Assembly: GCA_036939755.1 (NCBI GenBank)
Contig: JALLAZ010000786.1
Location: 1-12,072, forward strand
Origin: Stephanodiscus triporus
Lineage: Eukaryota; Bacillariophyta; Thalassiosirophyceae; Thalassiosirales; Thalassiosiraceae
DNA: 12,072 nt
Direction: 5' to 3'
The notes under the pieces are model-generated. The model was given only the letters and a program-made list of their open reading frames with translations, ran no database searches and was not told the DNA's origin. Made by a program: the position numbers and the translations under genes. Shown piece after piece: positions 378-12,072 of this stretch (its first letter is position 1; every line of letters starts with the position of its first letter).

Positions 378-1287
378 ATGATCCGACTGTTCATTCTCTC
401 ATCAGTACTATCCTCTCTCGATGCCTTCCGCCTCGCACCGCCATCTTCTCTCCTCCTTCACGGTGGAGCGTCGCGAGATTCCGCCATGATGGCAACGACA
501 TCGTCGCCGCCGCTGCCGCGACGTACGGCATCGTCACCGCTCCACGCCGCCGCCGCCGCCGGCGAAGACGATGCCGCCGCCGAGGGAGGGATTCCGGACG
601 AGACCAAGGCATCTTCGGAGGGTTCCGGCGACGTTTCGGACATCCTTAACTCTCCCGCATTCCTCAAACGAAAGGTGGAGGTCCTGCAATCAGACATCGC
701 TGCCTTGGAAAAGGAATTGGAGGAGGCGACCGCCGTAGCCTCGGCGGCGAAGGAGGAGTGGGGTGCCAAGTTCGACATGCTGAATAAGGAGGTGAGTGGT
801 GCAAGTGTTTGACCGTGGCTGTGTGAATAACATCAAATTCGTAACCGACAACAACATTCATCTTCTCGTTATGTTCTTATGCCTATTCTTCATCCGCATG
901 GATTAGTCGAAAGGGATGCAGGACCGACTGGCCAAACAGGGAGCGCTAGGCACCGAAACCGCAACCATCGACGTCGCCACGCGCATCCTCAATGTCTTGG
1001 ATAATTATGACCGCGCCTTTCAATCCGTCGAGGCGGCCACCAACGAGGAGGTGGAGATCGTGGACGCGTACAAAAAGACGTACGACATGATACTCGACGC
1101 CTTCGTGGAATTGAACGTGACGAAAGTGGAAACCGTCGGGTACGAATTCAATTACGAGATGCATCAGGCCATGATGCAGATGCCGAGCGACGAGTACGAG
1201 GAGGGGATTGTCTGTCAGGAGTTCGCTATGGGATGGAAGTTCGGGGAGAAGTTGATCCGTCCGGCGATGGTGGTGGTTACGGCTTGA
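378..1287 (+). CDS. grpE: Plastid-targeted GrpE nucleotide exchange factor (two exons)
   Basis: Co-chaperone that releases ADP from Hsp70/DnaK. Exons are 378-791 and 907-1287, with a 115-nt phase-0 intron (GTGAGT..TTAG), giving 264 residues. Residues 1-16 are a hydrophobic signal peptide ending in the DAF-RLAP junction at residues 15-20. This, with the Ser/Ala-rich and basic segment that follows, indicates bipartite import into a complex plastid. Residues ~60-90 are an Ala/acidic low-complexity linker containing a GCC-rich tract. Residues ~97-150 form the long coiled-coil helix typical of GrpE. Residues ~155-264 carry the four-helix and beta-wing region, with LDNYDRAF, VGYEFNYEMHQAM and a C-terminal LIRPAMVVV matching the family ending. 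Its likely partner is the plastid DnaK/Hsp70. A mitochondrial GrpE would not need the signal peptide. Family call is firm; plastid location is an inference from the presequence. Confidence 0.92.
541..588 (+). repeat. GCC/GCG-rich low-complexity tract in the GrpE linker
   Basis: Imperfect GCC/GAC triplets encode an Ala-rich then acidic linker between the targeting peptide and the coiled coil. The same tract creates Arg-rich spurious frames on both strands. It is probably a neutral trinucleotide expansion. Confidence 0.5.
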
Positions 1288-1564: not shown

Positions 1565-2819
1565 TCAGTAATCACCGTCATCGGCGCAAACTTCACCGAA
1601 CACATCGCAGGGACATTCCTCGTCCTCCTGTGACGATGCATCCTTCTTTTCTTCATCGGAAGCATCCTCCTCCTCCTCCCCTCCCCGGCCCTCATCGTGG
1701 TCCCCACGTCCGACCCTATGTCGCACGTACCACGACAATTGTTCGTCGCCTACGTCGTGTTCGCACGCGTCGTATATTTCTCGTGCCATATTTATGACTT
1801 TGTCCGCCCCCTCCATGGTGAAGGTCTTGACGACCGCATCCCTCAGGGAGGTGTGCCTCTGCATGTCGGCGTGGAGGAATCTGTGCAAATGCGCCCGGAT
1901 GCACTTGAGTCCGCTTCCCTGCCCTCCGTCGTTGGGAGGGTGCACCTTGCAAAGGTCCAGGTAATCCACGGCCATTCGCAATCGTCCCGGTCCAGTCCGT
2001 CTGTAATTCGTCGATTCGACGTTCGTCTCGGTGAAAAGCGGAGGATATTCCAATATCGCCTCCGACGACATGACGCCGTCAGCGCCCGTCGCCTCCAGAC
2101 ACCGTCGGACGTCGTCCATGTTGGATATCCCCCCGTTGGCGAGGACGGGCACCCGACGTCCAACTAGCTCGACCACCCTCCGTATCGCGTCCCAGTCGGC
2201 GTCCCCCGTCGCCATCTGCTTCTGGTGCCTATTGCGGCCGTGTATCGTGAGCATCGACGCGCCCGCGTCGACCAGCCTCTCGTACAGCGCGAGGGAGTCC
2301 TCTATGCCCGTGGGGAGTATCCGAAGCTTGACGCTCACGGGCACGGACAGGTTCGACGACAGGTGACGCACGATGTCGACGATACGATCTCCCCCCTCCT
2401 CCTCCATGAGAAAAGCGCCGTACCGTCCCCTCTTCGCGATGCCCTGGGGACAGCCGCAGTTGACGTCGACTCCGTCGACCCCTCCCTCCACGATCCTCAT
2501 CGCCGCGAGGAGCACGTCCTTGTCGTGCCCGCAGAACTGCGCGATGAGCGGCCGGTCCTCCGCGGGAGTGCCCTGCTTCCAGAACTTTCGTCGGTATCCC
2601 GGCTTCTCCACGAACATCTTCGCGTGTATCATAGGCGTGAAGCAAAGGTTGGCGTTGTACCTGCGCGCGAGGAGGCGGTAGGGCAGGTCCGAGGCGTCGA
2701 CCATGGGCGACCCACCACGAGGGCCGTATCGCGCAGGTCGGGGGGCATGGAGGGGTGCCGATGTGCGTGTCGCAGGAGGAGCTGGCGGAGCCAATCGCGC
2801 TGGATCTTTCAACCTTCAT
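1565..2819 (-). CDS. DUS1: Dus1-type tRNA-dihydrouridine synthase, with apparent frameshift near its 5' end
   Basis: FMN/NADPH-dependent enzyme that reduces uridine to dihydrouridine in the tRNA D-loop (yeast Dus1 acts on U16/U17). The main frame runs from an ATG at 2704 to the TGA at 1565 (379 residues). It carries MVDASDLPYRLLARRY, CFTPMIHAKMF, RPLIAQFCGHD, the catalytic-Cys motif NCGCPQGIAKRGRYGAF (Cys about residue 85), VSVKLR, TIHGR, VLANGGI and GVMSSEAI. All are standard TIM-barrel FMN-binding and active-site positions. The C-terminus is a very acidic tail. The first ATG in this frame (2704) would remove the first barrel strand. An ATG at 2819 opens a second frame that ends in SWWVA exactly where the family has VAPMVD, and joining the two needs 2 extra nucleotides at about 2705. 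No AG acceptor lies where an intron could make the join. Either the sequence has an indel, the gene is damaged, or translation starts at 2704. Convergent with grpE and divergent from the nuclease gene. Confidence 0.88.
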
Positions 2820-3040: not shown

Positions 3041-3347
3041 ATGCCGTCGTGGGTAGATCGAATGCGGATGGTGCCCCTAACCGGCACACCATCGAGGACG
3101 GCGACAACTCCTAAAAAGGCGACGTCTTCCGGGAAAGACATCAGCCGACACGACGACGACGACGAAGTCCTGGAATTCAATATCGCCACGCTCAACTTGC
3201 TCGCGGAATCGTACCTGACGCCCCGCTCCCATCCAGGATTGCCCAGGAGGTACGCCGACGTGGCATTCGACCCGTCGAGACGACGAAGGTTGCTTTTGGA
3301 GACCCTCGAGAGATTTTGCGGTTCGTCCCCCCCCTCGGCCGAATCGC

Positions 3348-3378
<31 letters not shown>

Positions 3379-5985
3379 CAAGTTGGACGTACTCGCCCTC
3401 CAGGAACTCGACCTGGTCGAGGCAGGCGATCCTATTCTTCCCGCGTTCGAGGCTTGGGGGTATCGGGTGGTCAGGACCCCGAGCGATCAGCGTAAGGATT
3501 GCTGCGCGATCGCATTCGACGAGAGCAAATTCACATTGATCAATTCCGAGGTGGTTAGGTTCGATGACCTGGCGACCTTGCCGAAAAAGCGCGACTGCGA
3601 TGGCGGCGACGTTGAAGACGCCGCCGCTGGCAAGGAGGCGAACGGCACCTCCGTGACCTACCACAACATCAAGCCCCGGAGGTCCAACTCGCCGCCGGAG
3701 TTGACCGGGATGGTACGGTCGTTCCTGCGGAGGAATTGCGCCGTCGTGGCGCATCTCGAGTCCGTCCGCACGAGGCAGTCGATCATAGTCGCGTCGGTCC
3801 ATTTGTATTGGCATCCCGGATACGAGTATGTGAAACTCTGTCAGGCGAAGTACTTGTTGGATTTCGTCGCCGCGTTTGCCATCACGGAACAGAGGAGGGC
3901 GGCGGGAACGACAACGGCGACGACTCGACAGGCGCCATCCGTCATCATTTGCGGGGACATCAATTCGAAGCCGGGGAGTACCGTTCACAAGCTATTCGTG
4001 GAACCTCATGTAGATGCCAGGACTGTGGCACCGTGGCGGTACTTCTGGGACCAAGACAACGAGGTGATGTATAAGGAGGACGATGACAACGGAAGTGCAG
4101 CCAACAAGGAGGAAGAGGAGGGACACCGCGACAGGGTAACCATGGAATCTCATTCCAACAAAAACAACAGCAATGAGCATTACAATAATGCCGCTTCACA
4201 GCACGGGAAGGATCCAACAGTCGCGACAAACTCTGACTTGCCAACCGTAATTAATGACCCAGAGAAGGAAAGGGAACACGGGCACGTGGCGAGCGGGTTT
4301 CCTGCTGGTGGAAACATTATGAGTGGACTTCCAACTCAATTTACCACTTACTGCGGGTTCATTGACTCGAATATCGATGACAAGAAGGACACGTCAGATG
4401 CCACAGTTGATACGAATTACGACGACTTCAAATTGAATCAATGCGAAGGCCGGCCCTTAGAAACCACCAAAATTGGAATGAACACATCGGAAACGAGTAT
4501 TCCAGAAAATGGTCATGCAGAATCATATGATCACGTCAACGGTGCCTACAATGACTCGAAAGAATCACTTGCGATGCGCAAACTTCTGAAGCACAACACT
4601 CCACAAGATTATCAGCACTCAACACCACCATTGTCAGTAAAATACATGCTGGATTACACATTGAATCGGTTCACAAGGTGAGATATGTGTTCATTCATGC
4701 GTCTTGCCCTCACTCGAACAGTGCGCTCACGGGTTTTATTATTCTCAAAGATGGCTTCGACTTTTGGGCATTGACGCCAGGTTGGAAAGATTGGAGGAGG
4801 AAAAAGAACGTACTAGCGGTGGCAAAATGTGAGTGCTTTACGATAAACTTTCCGCCGATATTCACTGGAGCTCTCAAGCTCACCACACGGAATGCCATAC
4901 ATTACCCTAGAGCCCTATTCGAACACTGTAAAAACGAACGACGGACACTCCTCACGACATCCTATAAGCTCCTGCTCAGAAAGGACTGCCCTCCTGGAGC
5001 CTACCTTCTTGACCCGAAATCTACCTCCTATCTAGAACTTACGCTACCCCGTCTCCTCCGAACCCACGGTATTGAGCTATCGCCGCGCACTTTTCTCACC
5101 CGTTGTGTTTTGTGCAATGGTGACATAAATCGGGTATCGACTGAAGAGGAGAAGAGAGCTGTATTTATACAGCACGATGCGCCTGGTATGGCAGATGGCA
5201 ACTTGGAGGACGTGGAGGTATTTAGATGTACCCGCTGTTTGCAAGGTTATTGGTGGGATGAAAGGCCAGCTAGCTCAGCTTCTCGCTCATTTAATCAAGC
5301 GGCAAAGCTGCTACGGTTATGCTTGCGCGGGGGGGTTGCTTTGAAGGATGAAAATCCAACTGACAAAAAGAATTGGCTCAGACAAGACATTATGGGGGCA
5401 TTTGAATTTGTCGACGTTGCAAAAGAGCGCGAGGCTCCGGACCGGTCAACGAATGAAAATGAAGAACTTGCTGTGATCGAATGGCTGAATAAAGAGAAAC
5501 TGAGTAGTCCCTTCACACTGAAAAGTGCAATGGCTCTAGGTGACACAACCTTAGAATCATTACCTTTTACGAACGTGACGAAAGAATTCGTTGGAACTTT
5601 GGACTATCTTTTTTTCTCTGCGCAACAATTCGAGCAATTGTGCAAGCTGACCCTTCCTAAATCGTTCAAAGAGATGAATCCTACAGGGATTCGTCAAGGA
5701 CATTTGATTCCCAGTGATATCTGGCCGAGTGATCACATTGCAGTTGGAGCTCGCTTAAGACTGAAACAAAAAGATACTCCTGCCGCTGATCGCTCTCACA
5801 CCGCTCCCCGTAATAGAGCAAATGATGCCATCAATGACAAGAGCCCAACGAATAACAATGCGAAACCGCATGCTCGTACGTGTGCTTGCGGCTGTGTCCC
5901 CGAAATACTGTCCTTATTTGAAATGGCTGAGCTCAGGAAGAAAGCTAGGGATGCAAAAATAACTGCGGCCAAGGCAGCAAAGTAA
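3041..5985 (+). CDS. Composite nuclease: EEP (CCR4/nocturnin-like) domain interrupted by a Mut7-C RNase domain
   Basis: Exons 3041-4677, 4751-4828 and 4911-5985; introns of 73 nt (phase 2) and 82 nt (phase 2), both GTGAG..AG. The sum is 2790 nt, giving 929 residues in one frame. Residues ~45-320 are the first half of an EEP Mg2+-dependent phosphodiesterase: TLNLLAES (Asn52), LALQELDL (Glu122), SVHLYWHPG (His254) and CGDINSKPGS (Asp306, Asn308). Residues ~345-525 are a hydrophilic low-complexity linker. Residues ~533-690 are a Mut7-C (PF01927) PIN-like RNase module: KYMLDYTLNRFTR joined by splicing to WLRLLGID, then ERRTLLTTSYKLL, then a zinc ribbon with RCVLCNGD (Cys637, Cys640) and RCTRC (Cys678, Cys681). 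Residues ~772-860 complete the EEP fold: LKSAM, PFTNVTKEFVGTLDYLFFS (Asp803) and WPSDHI (Asp846, His847). The tail has a CACGC cluster and a basic helix. A role in RNA or poly(A) turnover is likely; the substrate is unknown. The start could instead be ATG 2959 through a 70-nt intron (3049-3118, phase 0), which gives a presequence-like N-terminus. Confidence 0.82.
3346..3375 (+). repeat. (GAC)n trinucleotide run
   Basis: A near-perfect GAC run encodes an eight-residue poly-Asp tract (residues ~104-111) in a loop of the EEP domain. A shorter GAC run lies at ~3151-3166. Such microsatellites are prone to length change. Confidence 0.75.
4678..4750 (+). other. Intron 1 of the composite nuclease gene
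   Basis: Donor aag|GTGAGATATG, acceptor CTCAAAG|atgg, 73 nt, phase 2. Removing it turns the exon ending NRFTR into NRFTRWLRLLGIDAR, the conserved first helix of Mut7-C. The homology therefore fixes the splice sites. Confidence 0.85.
4829..4910 (+). other. Intron 2 of the composite nuclease gene
   Basis: Donor aaaat|GTGAGTG, acceptor ATTACCCTAG|agcc, 82 nt, phase 2. It is the only AG in range that restores the frame. The join reads TSGGK-I-ALFEHCKNERRTLLT, as expected for the middle of Mut7-C. The intervening 78-nt exon (4751-4828) is unusually small. Confidence 0.8.
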
Positions 5986-6075: not shown

Positions 6076-7824
6076 CTAATAAACTTCCACGTGCCATTGA
6101 TTGTTCTTTTTCAGCTCGCTCAATTTATCACTCCAAACAATACCCTGGCTCTGAGCGACGGCTTCCAATGTCTCCAGAATGGGTGGCATCATTCCCTTCA
6201 ATCCGCAGAAGTAGACATGTGCACCGGCATCAAGTCGATCGAATAATTCTTTCCCGTTTTGAGCGATGACATGCTGAACGTAGAGTTTGCCACCGTCAAT
6301 AGAGTTGGTCATTTCGCGGGATATGGCGTAGTCAATCCTTAAGTGGCCAGGCGAAGCTATGGATAGATTTAGGAGTGAAAAGGTCACGCGAGACACATAT
6401 GAGATCAACTTTGCAAGTGATCAATATCCAAAGTATTGTGTGTACATAGGACTTACCATTTCTCATCATGCAGTCGAACTCTTCCTTGTACAACAACCCT
6501 CCACTAACGGGCACGCCCAACACCAACCAGGCGCTGCCACCGAACATATGCCTCGCTGAACAGCACGAACAAGAAGAAAAACGGTTATCGGGGGTGATAC
6601 GTCGTGTTCTCGAAAACAATCGGAGTACCGTACGCACCTAAAGTATTTTCCATAAACAATCGATGCATAAATCCACGGAACGGCGCAATTCCAGTTCCGG
6701 TCGCAATCATGATAATATCCTTCGTGGGATCCTTGGGGAGCAACATCGTCTTCCCTACCGGTCCCGCGACTGAGACTTCATCACCCGGCTGAAGGTCACA
6801 CAGAAAGTTGGAGCACACTCCCTGCTTTGCGGGATCCTTCTGGCCGGTGATTGGGTCGATGTATTCGGCGCGTCTGACGCAAAGGCTAATGGTATTGCCG
6901 TCCAGTAGATCGCCATAGCGGGTGGAGGCAATGGAGTAAAGTCGGGGTTTGTGATTGCGACCGCTCGTTGCGTCCGTGCCGGGAGGTATGACGCTGAGAG
7001 ATTGCCCTGAAGACCCAAGCAACGCAAGGAACAAAGTCGGATGTGAGCATTAGTAGGTTGGATATTGCTCCAACATGACACATCAACCACTTCAAAACAG
7101 AGTAACTACGCCCTCCGTGATAAAAATGTGGGGAGATTTCATGCGTCGAACAAAAGGAATCATTCAACTATTACAATACGTGGTCTCTCCCAAGCCCTAC
7201 CAAAGAGCTCATTTCATCGACACTTTTCAGTGCCGACACCTTTCTTATCGCATTCAAACAGGGGCCAACTGTGAGCATGGAATAAATTTTTATTGGCTCA
7301 GCCGGCCTGTGATAGGGAATGCATTTTTTACACTTGTGCACGCCCAGAATGGAGATTGGATAAAAAATCTCACCCTCAACATAGTGAAAACCGACAGGGA
7401 GCTTCATGATGATATGTTCGATGTCGCCCGGCGCATCGTCGCTGATGAGCTTGGCGCGCCCGAGTATTGTGGCGGTAACGGGCGCCTGAGGCTTGGCAAA
7501 GTTTAGCGGCAATTCTCCGTTGGAATCGAGATGCTCGAGGAAGTGTTGCGCATCCCTGATCTGCACCCCGACCGGGGGGGTGTCGACGATGTTCTGGGGC
7601 GGGACAATCGTGAAGGCCGCGCCGTTGGAGATGCGACCGATGAGATCGTTCGTGCCTTGCAATTTCCCAGACTCGTTGGGATCGAAGAGGGAAAGATCGC
7701 CGGGCAATTTGATGCTCACTCCCGAGCCGGCCTTTTTGATGAGGTCCGGCGGTGACGGGGTGAACGCAAGTGCCGCATTGGTGAGCGACGCTGCGGCGCT
7801 GATGTAGAACAATCTTGTTATCAT
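6076..7824 (-). CDS. petH: Plastid ferredoxin-NADP+ reductase precursor (four exons)
   Basis: Transfers electrons from photosystem I-reduced ferredoxin to NADP+ on the stromal side of the thylakoid. Exons, in transcript order, are 7824-7374, 7006-6639+1 (ending 6638), 6555-6457 and 6356-6076. Introns are 367, 82, 100 and GT..AG bordered, all phase 1. The sum is 1200 nt, giving 399 residues. The start at 7824 (aaccATGA) is the first ATG and opens directly into a hydrophobic signal peptide ending AALAFTP (A20-F21), a bipartite plastid presequence. Residues ~22-112 are a spacer without recognised domain. The FAD domain follows, with [11 protein letters not shown] and RLYSIAS (~172-178), [20 protein letters not shown] and GPVGK. 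The NADP+ domain has [14 protein letters not shown] (~250-263), [26 protein letters not shown] and VYFCGLKGM, and the protein ends WHVEVY with the C-terminal aromatic residue that stacks on FAD. All key FNR motifs are intact. Convergent with the nuclease gene (90-nt gap) and divergent from the RdRP-like gene. Confidence 0.94.
7007..7373 (-). other. Long first intron of petH
   Basis: 367 nt, GTGAGATTTTTT..CTTCAG, phase 1, splitting the Gly codon of YVEG|QSLS. It is three to five times longer than the other introns here. On the opposite strand it carries part of a 143-codon open frame that continues antisense over exon 1, most likely by chance. I see no RNA gene in it. Confidence 0.85.
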
Positions 7825-8236: not shown

Positions 8237-11200
8237 ATGCAGGGACATCACATCCTGCACAATCTCGGCAGTCAGGCACGAAACCACACTGCCGTGATGG
8301 AGAAGGCCCCCGAAATTGCCACGGCGCCGGGCTGCGTCCTAAACTCCAACGAAGATGTGGCGGAGGCGGAGTCTTCCCTCGCAGACGAAGCCACATCCGA
8401 CCTTGAACCAGCATGTCGTGGCAATAAGGAGGTATGTGATCGAGATCTTTTAGTGACACATCCGGCTCATCGATCATTCAACGTTATTGCACTGTCCCTC
8501 CTAACAATGTGTTGCTTTCACATGCAGATTGAGCAAGACATCACTTTAGAAGATGCATACGTCCACTCTAACCTTCGGGGCGCAACGGCGAACGCCGAAT
8601 CGATGTTCGATGGATCCACGCAGCGAGAGGAGACGACCCCAAACATCATGAACCTCGAAGCCAAAGCATCGGGAGGAGATACTTCAATCACCGAACATGG
8701 AGTTCAGGATGACCTTTCAATGAACCACGGAGGTCAAGATCCCGAAGTAGTGGCGCGGGGGAAATCACATACCGAAGATACGGATTCGGTTGGGATGGCT
8801 GGAGAAGAGGTCGCGCGCCCAAAGCAAGCGAGACTGGCACCTGAAGCGGAGCCGGCGAGTGTGGAGGTCGATGGACTTCTATTTGAGGCTGAGCACCCAG
8901 AGGAAAAAGAAGAGCAGGCTGATCTAGATAGACTCGAAAAGGAGCGATTAGATAGAGATAGAATTATGGATGAGGTGGCCGATGTGCAACGAAGAATGTC
9001 CCCCAAGAACCCTCCTCCAGGGCCAGGGTGGACACCAAAAAAAGTGGCAGAGGGTGCGGGGCATAGTCGCTTCCATTGGATCTCTCCAATCAGGCATATT
9101 CAGTTTAAAAGGTATCAATCAGCATGCCAATTCGAAGTGCTGAGGAAAGAGAATGACAATGACGAAGTGCAAGCTTGGGATGTGTACAGAAGGAATGTAC
9201 GTGGTCTAACATGTGTAGTTTCTCCTGACCAGTATGACCAGGATGACTCATTGCCAAAGGAGACCCCCTCTCCAAGGCCAGGACGAGCAAAAAAGCCAAA
9301 TTGCGACAGAGCGATTGAGAAAGCTGGAAATATCAAGAGAGGGCAAAAGAGTAGATTAAATGAAGTGAGCTCATCCAAGCCAGTGCAGAAGACGCCACGA
9401 GTGACCAAGGCAACTGGACAGAGAGGCATTAAGAAAATTGGTGCAAAAAGAACGGGGATGCAATCGAGTATCTCAATCGAAGCCAGCCCATCAAAGAGCT
9501 TGCGCCCTCCTCCAGGGCCAGGGTGGAAATTCGATAAAGCTAGAGAAGCTGGGCGTAAATATAATGTTTGCCACTGGTTTTCGCCAATCAGAAAAATTGA
9601 GTTTCTAAGGTGGAAAGAGGCTTGTGAATTTGAAGATCTCAGGAAACAATTTGGGGCTGGCGAGATTAAAGCTTGGGCTGAGTATAGGAAAATTAAACGT
9701 GGGGAACGTATCCGCGTCGTGACTCCGTATCTCTACGATTCTAAGCCATGGATAAACGGAGCCACGAAAAAAATTGCTGGAAATATGAGTGGGACGCAAG
9801 AGAATCATCTCACTGGAGCAAGTGCAAGGAAGTCCCCCAAGAGCCCTCCTCCAGGGCCAGGATGGGAATCAAAGCTTGTGAAGTATCTAAGGCAGAATCG
9901 CTTCCATTGGTTCTCTCCGGGCAGGCGTATCGAGTTTATGATGTATAAACCAGCATGCCTATTCGAAAAGCTGAGGGAAGACAATGACAATGACGAAGTG
10001 CGAGCTTGGCATAAGTACAGAAGGAATGTACGTGGTGCGACATTCGTAGTTTCTCCTCACCAGTATGACCGGCATGACTCATTGCCAAGGGAGACCCCCC
10101 CTCCAAGGCAGGCGTGGGGGACAGAACGTGTGACCAGGCCAAACGGCACGATTTCCATTGGGAAAACTGCACACGCAAAGTTGAGACAGAAGAGCACCCT
10201 GATTGAAGCGCGCTCATCGAAAGAAGATGGACAGCGAGGCATTAAAAAGATTAGGGGAAAATCAGTGAAGAGTACAGAGAGTACCTCAACAGGAGCCAGC
10301 TCGACAAAGTCTAGCAGGAGTCCACTCACAAGACCTGTGCACACAACAGAGCGAGTGACCAAGCCAAGCAAAGCGACTGTTCGTCGCAAACCCATGGTCA
10401 TCGATCAGGAATGGGCTTTGTCACTTGTTGGACTTCGTCTAAAAGTCCCTGAGAAGTGGTGGAATGGATATACTGGAAATACTCTCTACGCTGGTCAAAT
10501 TGCTGCCGTCAATTTTTCAGACAATGCCAAGCCTTTCATGTTCGAATTGGACAACGAAGAGAATGACGAGTCCTACCGAATGCGTTATGATGCCGTCCTC
10601 TGTTACGCAGACAAAGGGCATCCTACCCACTCAAGCTTTAACCTTCCAGCGGAGCCTCCTGCCGATCCCAATGTGACAAGATCCGGCAAGAGAAAGGGTA
10701 GAGAGGAGCTTAGTCAAGACGTTTTGAGGGCACAGAAGTTGCAGAAGACTAGCTATTTAGCAGCAAAGAAGTTGCCAAATGCCAGCATTAACTCAAAAAG
10801 CAAAAATAGTCTTGTTATCAAGTCAACTAAAAAATGCCGCAGTACCCCGGCTCCTAAGTTGCTGCATTACAAGGAATATTTTATGGACTGCCCGTTTCAA
10901 TCTTCCTCTCAGCCTGCTTTTCTCCATGATGGCCTCAACAGTAGCGCTGTCATGACAATCTGTCTCAAGCCAACTAAGAATAAGACTTTCTTTAGTGAGC
11001 AATTCAAAGGTCGAGTCCAACGTGTTCAGAAGAGTATCAATGATGTGCCCCCGGAGAAGAGTGTGACGTATGTAAGTGAAAATATATTTTATGACAATGA
11101 GAATGCCCATTATATTATCATCGACCATTTCCTCTTTCTAATTCTTGTGATACCTTGTAGGATGGCAAGAAATACTTCTTGGCTTCGGCCAAATTGATGA

Positions 11201-12072
11201 GAAACAACAATGGTGGGGGTATGCCATTTTGCCAAGAGAGAAAAATTGAACTGATGTACATTCGTGAAAAAGGCCTTCAGCAGGAGCTTGAGAAACTCTG
11301 TTGTTTTGGCTCGTTGAAACCAGAGAAAGCTGTTGCCAGGCTTGGTAAGAATGTTAGTCTTCCCTTGTAGCCTCCCTGTCAATCGTTCACTCAAATCATC
11401 TCTCAATGCACGCAGAACTTCTTCAAGCGGAGGCTCCAAAAATAGAATACACCGAGGCTTCTAAAATTGAGTTAATAGAAGAAGAGGGCCACGAGGGTGA
11501 GGAATATAATTCTGCATCCAGCGTTTGTCACATAGTTCCCGCCGCCTCCAACATGATTTTTGTGTGCCCAATTTAACATCACTCAAGGCTGTGGTTTCTA
11601 TCCAGAGGGATTTTTTGGTTCCGCGACGAAAAACAGTTGCGACGCAATTCAAGTTCGCATCCTTTCGCCGACGATAGGTTTAGCAAAGGGTATGCTACTG
11701 AAAAAGCGAGGGATCAATTGCATTCAACTACCAAGCAGCATGATCAAGGTCCCACCCAGCGAGACGTGCACTGATAGCTGGGCGGCAGTTGTCATCAGAA
11801 ATGAGTTTCCAAGTAAAGAGAATAGGCAGCTGGGCCGGTTTTTGGATCCTGACGCGGTGAAGGCAAACAAGAGCTGGATGAAGAATGATCGTAGAAAACA
11901 ACTCAGTAAAATGTATCAACGGATGTTGATTGGGTATGGCGTGAAAGTGTCAAAAGTCAAAGCATACACACGGGCAGCAAAAACTCCGAAGTATTTGAAA
12001 CACGGTGAGACATTGATGCGGACGACTTGTCATGACATTTCCGTGCTCTTGATTCTTACGGTTTGGGATTTT
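8237..12072 (+). CDS. MBD-like repeats and Tudor/agenet-like segment fused to an RNA-dependent RNA polymerase N-terminal half (partial, runs off right edge)
   Basis: Exons by homology and phase: 8237-8431, 8528-11071, 11161-11344, 11416-11496 and 11588-12004, with a probable donor (cacg|GTGAGAC) opening an intron at 12005. At least 1140 residues. Residues ~66-225 are acidic with a charged coiled-coil (EKERLDRDRIMDEV). Three repeats of PPPGPGW..HW(F/I)SP.R.I(E/Q)F..AC.FE.LR..AW..Y..RG..VVSP.QYD lie at ~227-306, 392-473 and 505-585, resembling methyl-CpG-binding domains. Residues ~688-760 (LVGLRLKVPEKWW..YAGQI..MFELDNEE..RMRYDAV) resemble a Tudor/agenet barrel. After a basic linker, residues ~840 onward follow the cellular RdRP (PF05183) order: YDGKKYFLASAKLMR, KPEKAVARLELL, KIELI, EGCGFYPEGF (family DGCG), DAIQVRI..GLAKGMLL and IQLPSSMIKV. 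The catalytic DxDGD lies outside the window. Alternative start: ATG 8297. Reading frame firm, domain names tentative. Confidence 0.62.
8432..8527 (+). other. Probable in-frame (3n, stop-free) intron
   Basis: Donor gag|GTATGTG, branch-like CCTAAC and pyrimidine-rich CTTTCACATGCAG acceptor, 96 nt, phase 0. Length is a multiple of three without a stop, so translation is open whether or not it is spliced. The extra 32 residues would be hydrophobic and Cys-containing, unlike the acidic flanks, which favours removal. Confidence 0.75.
9011..9250 (+). repeat. MBD-like coding repeat 1
   Basis: Starts PPPGPGW and contains FHWISPIRHIQF, ACQFEVLRKENDNDEVQAW, YRRNVRG and VVSPDQYD. Very close to repeat 3 at both nucleotide and protein level. 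Confidence 0.8.
9506..9750 (+). repeat. MBD-like coding repeat 2 (divergent)
   Basis: Same architecture (PPPGPGW, CHWFSPIRKIEF, ACEFEDLRK, IKAW, YRKIKRG, VVTPYLYD) but clearly diverged from repeats 1 and 3. It lacks the ENDNDEV sequence. Confidence 0.8.
9845..10090 (+). repeat. MBD-like coding repeat 3
   Basis: PPPGPGW, FHWFSPGRRIEF, ACLFEKLREDNDNDEVRAW, YRRNVRG and VVSPHQYD. Shares long near-identical nucleotide blocks with repeat 1, including the linker DSLP(R/K)ET.P after it. Confidence 0.8.
11072..11160 (+). other. Intron in the RdRP-like gene
   Basis: Donor tat|GTAAGTG, acceptor TACCTTGTAG|gatgg, 89 nt, phase 0. Splicing gives VTY-DGKKYFLASAKLMR, matching the RdRP GR.Y.FL..S segment. 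Unspliced, the frame stops at 11197. Confidence 0.8.
11345..11415 (+). other. Intron in the RdRP-like gene
   Basis: Donor cttg|GTAAGA, acceptor GCACGCAG|aac, 71 nt, phase 1. The join reads AVARL-E-LLQAEAP. Confidence 0.75.
11497..11587 (+). other. Intron in the RdRP-like gene
   Basis: Donor gagg|GTGAGG, acceptor CATCACTCAAG|gctgtgg, 91 nt, phase 1. It removes a stop at 11574 in the upstream frame and one at 11554 in the downstream frame, and creates HEGCGFYPEGF, the expected DGCG-like RdRP motif. Confidence 0.7.
12005..12072 (+). other. Probable 5' part of a further intron, cut by the window edge
   Basis: GTGAGAC follows KTPKYLKH. Although the frame stays open to the edge, the translated tail (a short hydrophobic run) loses RdRP character, so a donor at 12005 is likely. 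The acceptor would be outside the window. Confidence 0.5.

Follow-up and report, generated by a model that had tools for sequence, protein, structure and literature searches.

A cellular RNA-dependent RNA polymerase with N-terminal modules of predicted chromatin-reader type in a clade of diatom enzymes

We analyzed a gene at the right end of a 12,072-base stretch of DNA from the diatom Stephanodiscus triporus, hereafter the window, which is the whole of contig G000:C778 in a genome assembly of 21.65 Mb and 1,324 contigs. The gene is the last one in the window (8297–12004, plus strand), leaves the contig at its right end, and encodes, in this order, three GPGW repeats of ~80 residues each, a Tudor-like domain of ~90 residues, and the beginning (~290 residues) of a eukaryotic RNA-dependent RNA polymerase (RdRP) core. 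Sequence comparison makes it almost certain that this gene fuses an RdRP core with modules of reader type. The design recurs in a diatom clade of such polymerases and so is no isolated case. We estimate the probability at roughly 0.55–0.6 that the protein is a nuclear RdRP held on chromatin in cis, where it would feed Dicer-dependent silencing.

Once spliced, the reading frame (8297–12004) is open across 1,120 residues. Its large exon, 8528–11071, runs for 848 codons without a stop, compared with a longest open run of 189 codons in the same frame among 300 base shuffles. An earlier examination of the letters alone (the sequence-only reading) had placed three PPPGPGW repeats, a Tudor-like segment and the start of a polymerase in one open exon, and all of these features were found at the positions claimed, inside this single uninterrupted exon. 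The three introns by which that reading connected the exon to an ordered set of RdRP-type motifs (11072–11160, 11345–11415 and 11497–11587) all have GT...AG boundaries and keep a single frame, and all six motifs occur in the expected order across the spliced exons, so that the earlier observation as a whole is confirmed. Eight database proteins align unbroken over the three joints, with the sole exception of P0007 at the first one (an alignment at the protein level), and the paralogue on contig C719 shares the first joint, though its intron sequence differs. The features of the gene, all on the plus strand, are as follows.

8297..8431, plus strand: likely the first exon with coding sequence; the candidate start codon is the ATG at 8297, with an earlier in-frame ATG at 8237
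8432..8527, plus strand: possible intron 1 (GTATGT...GCAG), uncertain because it is 96 nt long and open in frame; it may be coding
8528..11071, plus strand: large coding exon of 848 open codons with the GPGW repeats, the Tudor-like domain and the start of the RdRP core
9005..9262, plus strand: GPGW repeat 1, MBD-like fold (repeat profile, weak fold matches)
9500..9760, plus strand: GPGW repeat 2, MBD-like (repeat profile)
9839..10096, plus strand: GPGW repeat 3, MBD-like (repeat profile)
10388..10663, plus strand: Tudor-like domain (homologues on C719, C1265 and C258; model pLDDT 66, Tudor folds top-ranked)
10875..11071, plus strand: start of the RdRP-homologous region (homologue alignments, profile of outside-clade RdRPs)
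11072..11160, plus strand: intron 2, GTAAGT...GTAG (joint common to C719; unbroken in seven of eight aligned relatives)
11161..11344, plus strand: RdRP exon, GKKYFLASAKLMR ... VARLE (frame, alignment to relatives)
11345..11415, plus strand: intron 3 (frame, alignment to relatives)
11416..11496, plus strand: RdRP exon, LLQAEAPKI ... GHE (frame, alignment to relatives)
11497..11587, plus strand: intron 4 (frame, alignment to relatives)
11588..12004, plus strand: RdRP exon with GCGF, IQVRI, KGML and LPSSMIKV, which stops before the DxDGD exon (C1063 match, alignments, profile)
12005..12072, plus strand: start of intron 5, which leaves the contig end (aligns with the near copy on C502)

The identification of the polymerase as a cellular RdRP was borne out by several comparisons. 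Scored with a profile built from seven RdRPs that do not belong to the clade described below, the RdRP part reached 157.3 bits, whereas none of 500 shuffles exceeded 8.1; the exon at 11581–12006 matched an RdRP on contig C1063 of the same genome at 41% identity (E 2.1e-13); and residues 830–1120, used as a query, matched 8 proteins among 3159 candidates, seven of them at 45–56% identity over 87–100% of the query and the eighth at 36% over 69%. The profile check that the sequence-only reading had proposed gave a divided answer: in the Pfam search, neither PF05183 nor the MBD model PF01429 matched the window's own residues, whereas the profile of outside-clade RdRPs matched strongly. Because both Pfam models miss the window's own sequence, it is relatives and folds that justify the RdRP and MBD labels. 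PF05183 does match 11 clade members, and in 9 of them the best-matching stretch opens at model position 346–347, about where the window ends, and P0004, which ends at the same place as the window, likewise has no PF05183 match; elsewhere in the genome, the model matches at three other loci, C1063 among them. We conclude from these alignments and profile scores that the gene encodes a cellular RdRP core of the PF05183 kind, which we take to be the family of the QDE-1 and RDR names. The DxDGD loop that should follow falls beyond the contig end in the window gene but is present in the near copy on C502, in a DGDLDGD exon. Nine of 13 database clade members have DLDGD, and three of the other four end before the loop; the fourth, P0012 from Conticribra weissflogii, has the predicted catalytic loop DLVGD instead and might be an inactive member or contain a sequence error.

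In comparisons of predicted structures, AtMBD6/AtMBD5 ranked first among the fold neighbors of the repeat, although the match was weak, and the best structural neighbors include MBD2/3 as well as AtMBD5/6. An MBD-like domain on contig C103, which itself matches PF01429 under the cut-off (E 0.0056), connects the GPGW repeats with the MBD domain; none of 28 GPGW repeats matches the Pfam model. These weak fold matches suggest that the repeats are MBD-like. Unlike the MBD domains of AtMBD5/6 and MBD2/3, however, the window repeats read R/V/R, H/H/H and K/L/M at the positions of an Asp, a Tyr and a second Arg that are visible in the MBD2/AtMBD6 alignment rows and presumably serve as methyl-CpG contacts. 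Among the 28 repeats, the contact residues occur 0 times for Asp, 5 times for Tyr and 14 times for Arg. The binding to methylated DNA that had been envisaged for this protein is unsupported because none of the three contact positions tested is kept, and we set aside methyl-CpG reading by the GPGW repeats. An iterative profile yielded 37 repeat copies in the 26 proteins given to it; compared with PDB sequences, the repeat profile produced two rows, both at chance level, and weak Pfam rows that were sub-cut-off or chance-level (CdiI_N at 0.006, SPATA25, Chitin_synth_1N, DUF7893, DUF7028 and others) were dropped. Two GPGW repeats also occur in a 1,177-residue open reading frame (ORF) on contig C1081 (L023, 2808–6338, minus strand), together with segments that look Tudor/agenet-like by eye; this ORF has no PF05183 match.

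The second module is putatively Tudor-like: Tudor proteins ranked first as folds for the modeled segment, again with a weak match, and the three contigs with homologues of the domain belong to the same genome. On one of them (G000:C1265, L045, 1641–4109, minus strand), the Tudor-like domain opens a transposase ORF (DDE_Tnp_1_7, E 7.6e-24), and the domain is thus common to a transposon and an RdRP in one genome. Separately, a module of ~87 residues, which resembles KOW/Tudor domains only on inspection by eye, occurs in repeated copies ahead of the RdRP on C1063 (L001, L013) and is also found on C283 (L015).

In a tree of 25 RdRP rows, 14 formed one clade (support 100/100), to which the aligned sequence assigns the window gene. 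No row of the clade lacks both kinds of module: GPGW repeats are found in 10 of the 14 and Pfam reader domains in 9. This 14 of 14 is no unbiased census, the rows having been drawn from searches seeded with the family. Among the rows with reader domains over curated cut-offs, eight combine PHD and CXXC, and P0013 has PHD, chromo- and bromodomains; five rows, the window included, have GPGW repeats and no Pfam reader domain. The window falls within an inner set of seven rows (100/98) beside six repeat-bearing ones, with its own row filling 49% of the columns. P0023–P0028 and an RdRP with a recognizable catalytic region on contig C40 of the same genome were left out of the tree. The nine database RdRPs outside the clade (P0008, P0014–P0021) share the homologous core, as do the RdRPs on C1063 and C730 of the same genome, which were also placed outside, but PHD, CXXC and the GPGW repeat were found in none of the nine; KOW was over the cut-off in three of them (P0008, P0018 and P0020).

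The N-terminal design, sought in other diatom RdRPs, therefore recurs across the clade. Protein searches gave 8 matches among 3,159 candidates, at least 19 among 7,990 scored proteins and at least 8 among 7,993 (query or earlier matches counted), and all clade members named by species are Thalassiosirales (four species, taxonomy looked up). The RdRPs of Thalassiosira sp. AJA248-18 and T. profunda (ACHAXT_003678) carry PHD and CXXC, with no GPGW repeat in the T. profunda protein in the iterative profile scan; that of T. exigua has PHD, CXXC and five GPGW repeats, that of Conticribra weissflogii (ACHAXS_009526) PHD, CXXC and one repeat, and that of Discostella (ACHAWU_005402) two PHD, two CXXC and five repeats. 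The PHD-CXXC-RdRP proteins of T. profunda, C. weissflogii and Discostella belong to the same clade as the window gene and likewise have their readers N-terminal to the core; they differ from the window copy, in which PHD and CXXC are absent and a Tudor-like domain is present. CCRYP_011281 (P0013), whose prefix we take to stand for Cyclotella cryptica, resembles the window gene in clade and in joining GPGW-type repeats, six divergent ones, to an RdRP, but adds PHD, a chromodomain and a bromodomain; the MAKER quality string on its label presumably means that all its splice sites are confirmed by expressed sequence. P0009 (PHD, CXXC, RdRP) is labeled as an MMETSP transcript. The environmental proteins P0025 and P0027 have two repeats, a Tudor-like domain and the RdRP start arranged as in the window; in the predicted proteins P0001–P0005 and P0007, repeats precede the RdRP core. 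Five database proteins are named "hypothetical protein", one of them also RNA-directed RNA polymerase in UniRef.

The genome of S. triporus itself contains near copies. The one on C719 has two GPGW repeats, the Tudor-like domain and the RdRP start in the window's order. C502 overlaps the window end at 87% identity over 179 bases and then continues into the DGDLDGD exon, with a difference in the length of an A-run that puts the overlap out of frame; because the overlap is only 87% identical, we rejected the idea that the window continues directly into C502 and treat C502 as a near copy of different sequence. C719 and C502 are possibly the two ends of one gene. After the RdRP stop on C502 (L021), 33 bases resemble the linker between the window repeats (88%, E 0.003). 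Between the window and C719, dN/dS was 0.61 (95% 0.42–0.90; 1 or more in 0.8% of bootstraps) over 227 codons from the Tudor-like domain into the RdRP, and a stretch of 73 codons where the RdRP starts gave 0.94. We used only the 227-codon value because the repeats have reached or almost reached saturation and their pairing may be non-orthologous. Over 8528–11071, dS against C719 (L022) was ~1.4 or saturated in the repeat half and ~0.2–0.3 in the Tudor-to-RdRP half, as if the N-terminal cassette had been swapped or were evolving separately from the rest.

According to the model that we favor, a diatom clade of cellular RdRPs gained N-terminal reader-type modules, and the reader array would keep the enzyme at particular nuclear chromatin, where it would copy transcripts made at that chromatin into double-stranded RNA (dsRNA). 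Separate Dicer-, Argonaute- and DNA-methyltransferase-like genes would convert this dsRNA into small RNAs and into silencing marks at the locus. The same genome has matches to these partner families, namely, an ORF in which RNase III matches twice over the cut-off (Dicer-like), a PIWI match just below the cut-off, and PF00145 (DNA-methyltransferase-like) matches on four contigs of presumed eukaryotic origin. All of these sit on other contigs. The interpretation in the sequence-only reading is partly supported: the single-frame fusion of a cellular RdRP core with reader-type modules is borne out and recurs, whereas binding to methylated DNA, chromatin tethering, polymerase activity and a "self-contained" silencing enzyme are so far predictions. 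For this copy we infer catalytic activity and, for the protein, a place in the nucleus, binding to chromatin and a silencing output, and several facts weigh against this: the catalytic exon of the window copy lies off the contig end, constraint is only moderate (dN/dS 0.61), and the three tested methyl-CpG contact positions are lost in the window repeats.

The strongest alternative, which we consider unlikely though it deserves to be taken seriously, holds that the RdRP is real but that its N-terminal arrays are not chromatin readers here: the repeats would interact with protein partners, or with nucleic acid but with no preference for a mark, while the polymerase would act wherever aberrant RNA is. 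It has to contend with the 9 of 14 clade rows that join the RdRP to PHD, CXXC, chromo- or bromodomains over curated cut-offs. Less probable still is that the family is real and the window copy a decaying or fast-evolving duplicate, as the near copies on C719 and C502, the frame-shifting A-run of C502 and the value of 0.94 at the RdRP start might suggest; an open run of 848 codons, joints that are every one in frame, and the value of 0.61 over the longer alignment, with its few bootstraps reaching 1, speak against it. That the fusion is an artefact, made of two neighboring genes or of an assembly chimera under a wrong gene model, is very improbable: the contig does end within the gene, but the repeats, Tudor-like domain and RdRP start share one uninterrupted exon, repeats precede the core in the six predicted proteins named above, and we rejected a chimera because the same module order recurs in C719, P0025 and P0027.

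In plants and fission yeast, separate adaptor proteins join chromatin reading to dsRNA synthesis in small-RNA silencing loops. Fission yeast Rdp1 and plant RDR2 are, as we propose for the diatom enzyme, RdRPs of nuclear silencing, but they are recruited by partner proteins (RITS/RDRC, Pol IV) and are not known to use readers in the same chain. No description of diatom RdRPs with chromatin-reader modules was found among the papers listed (in one case 10 of 1,665), judged by titles and abstract openings and with thin coverage of subscription papers; the sequence-only reading likewise knew of no described RdRP with this N-terminal architecture. Papers on diatom RNA interference report RdRP homologues, and reader domains go unmentioned in the portions of text available (PMC3155517, PMC3145265, PMC4247016). 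Helicase-RDR fusions, reported in oomycetes and Dictyostelium (PMC4791657, PMC4030286), similarly combine an RdRP with an N-terminal module, but that module is a DEAD-box helicase, and in a P. infestans table the proteins with chromo-, bromo-, PHD and CXXC domains stand under other genes (PMC4030286). In Phaeodactylum, small RNAs track methylated transposons, and small-RNA coverage exceeds the stated level for 74% of the Copia-type transposons that are methylated (PMC4247016). For this connection between small RNAs and methylated transposons in diatoms, the reader-fused clade offers a concrete candidate, and, with readers and polymerase in one chain, the question of how an RdRP is targeted becomes testable with one tagged protein.

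More tentatively, and at less than even odds, the PHD, CXXC, chromo- and bromodomains, MBD-like arrays and Tudor-like domain might constitute a swappable reader cassette on one Thalassiosirales RdRP lineage, such that a single polypeptide would sense the chromatin or CpG state of a locus and write dsRNA from that same locus. The ligands of PHD, CXXC, chromo- and bromodomains are histone tails and CpG DNA, and CXXC fingers bind unmethylated CpG. If the cassette interpretation is true, some members with CXXC fingers might recognize elements that are unmethylated or have only just inserted, and might initiate silencing at those sites without the adaptor complexes of plants and fission yeast.

The other genes in the window are ordinary neighbors: GrpE (916–1284, plus strand), a dihydrouridine synthase (1568–2812, minus strand) and an FAD/NAD-binding oxidoreductase (6079–7034, minus strand). 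Between the latter two, at 3041–5985 on the plus strand, an Exo_endo_phos-like ORF (sub-cut-off) overlaps a Mut7-C RNase ORF, and the two possibly form one intron-bearing gene.

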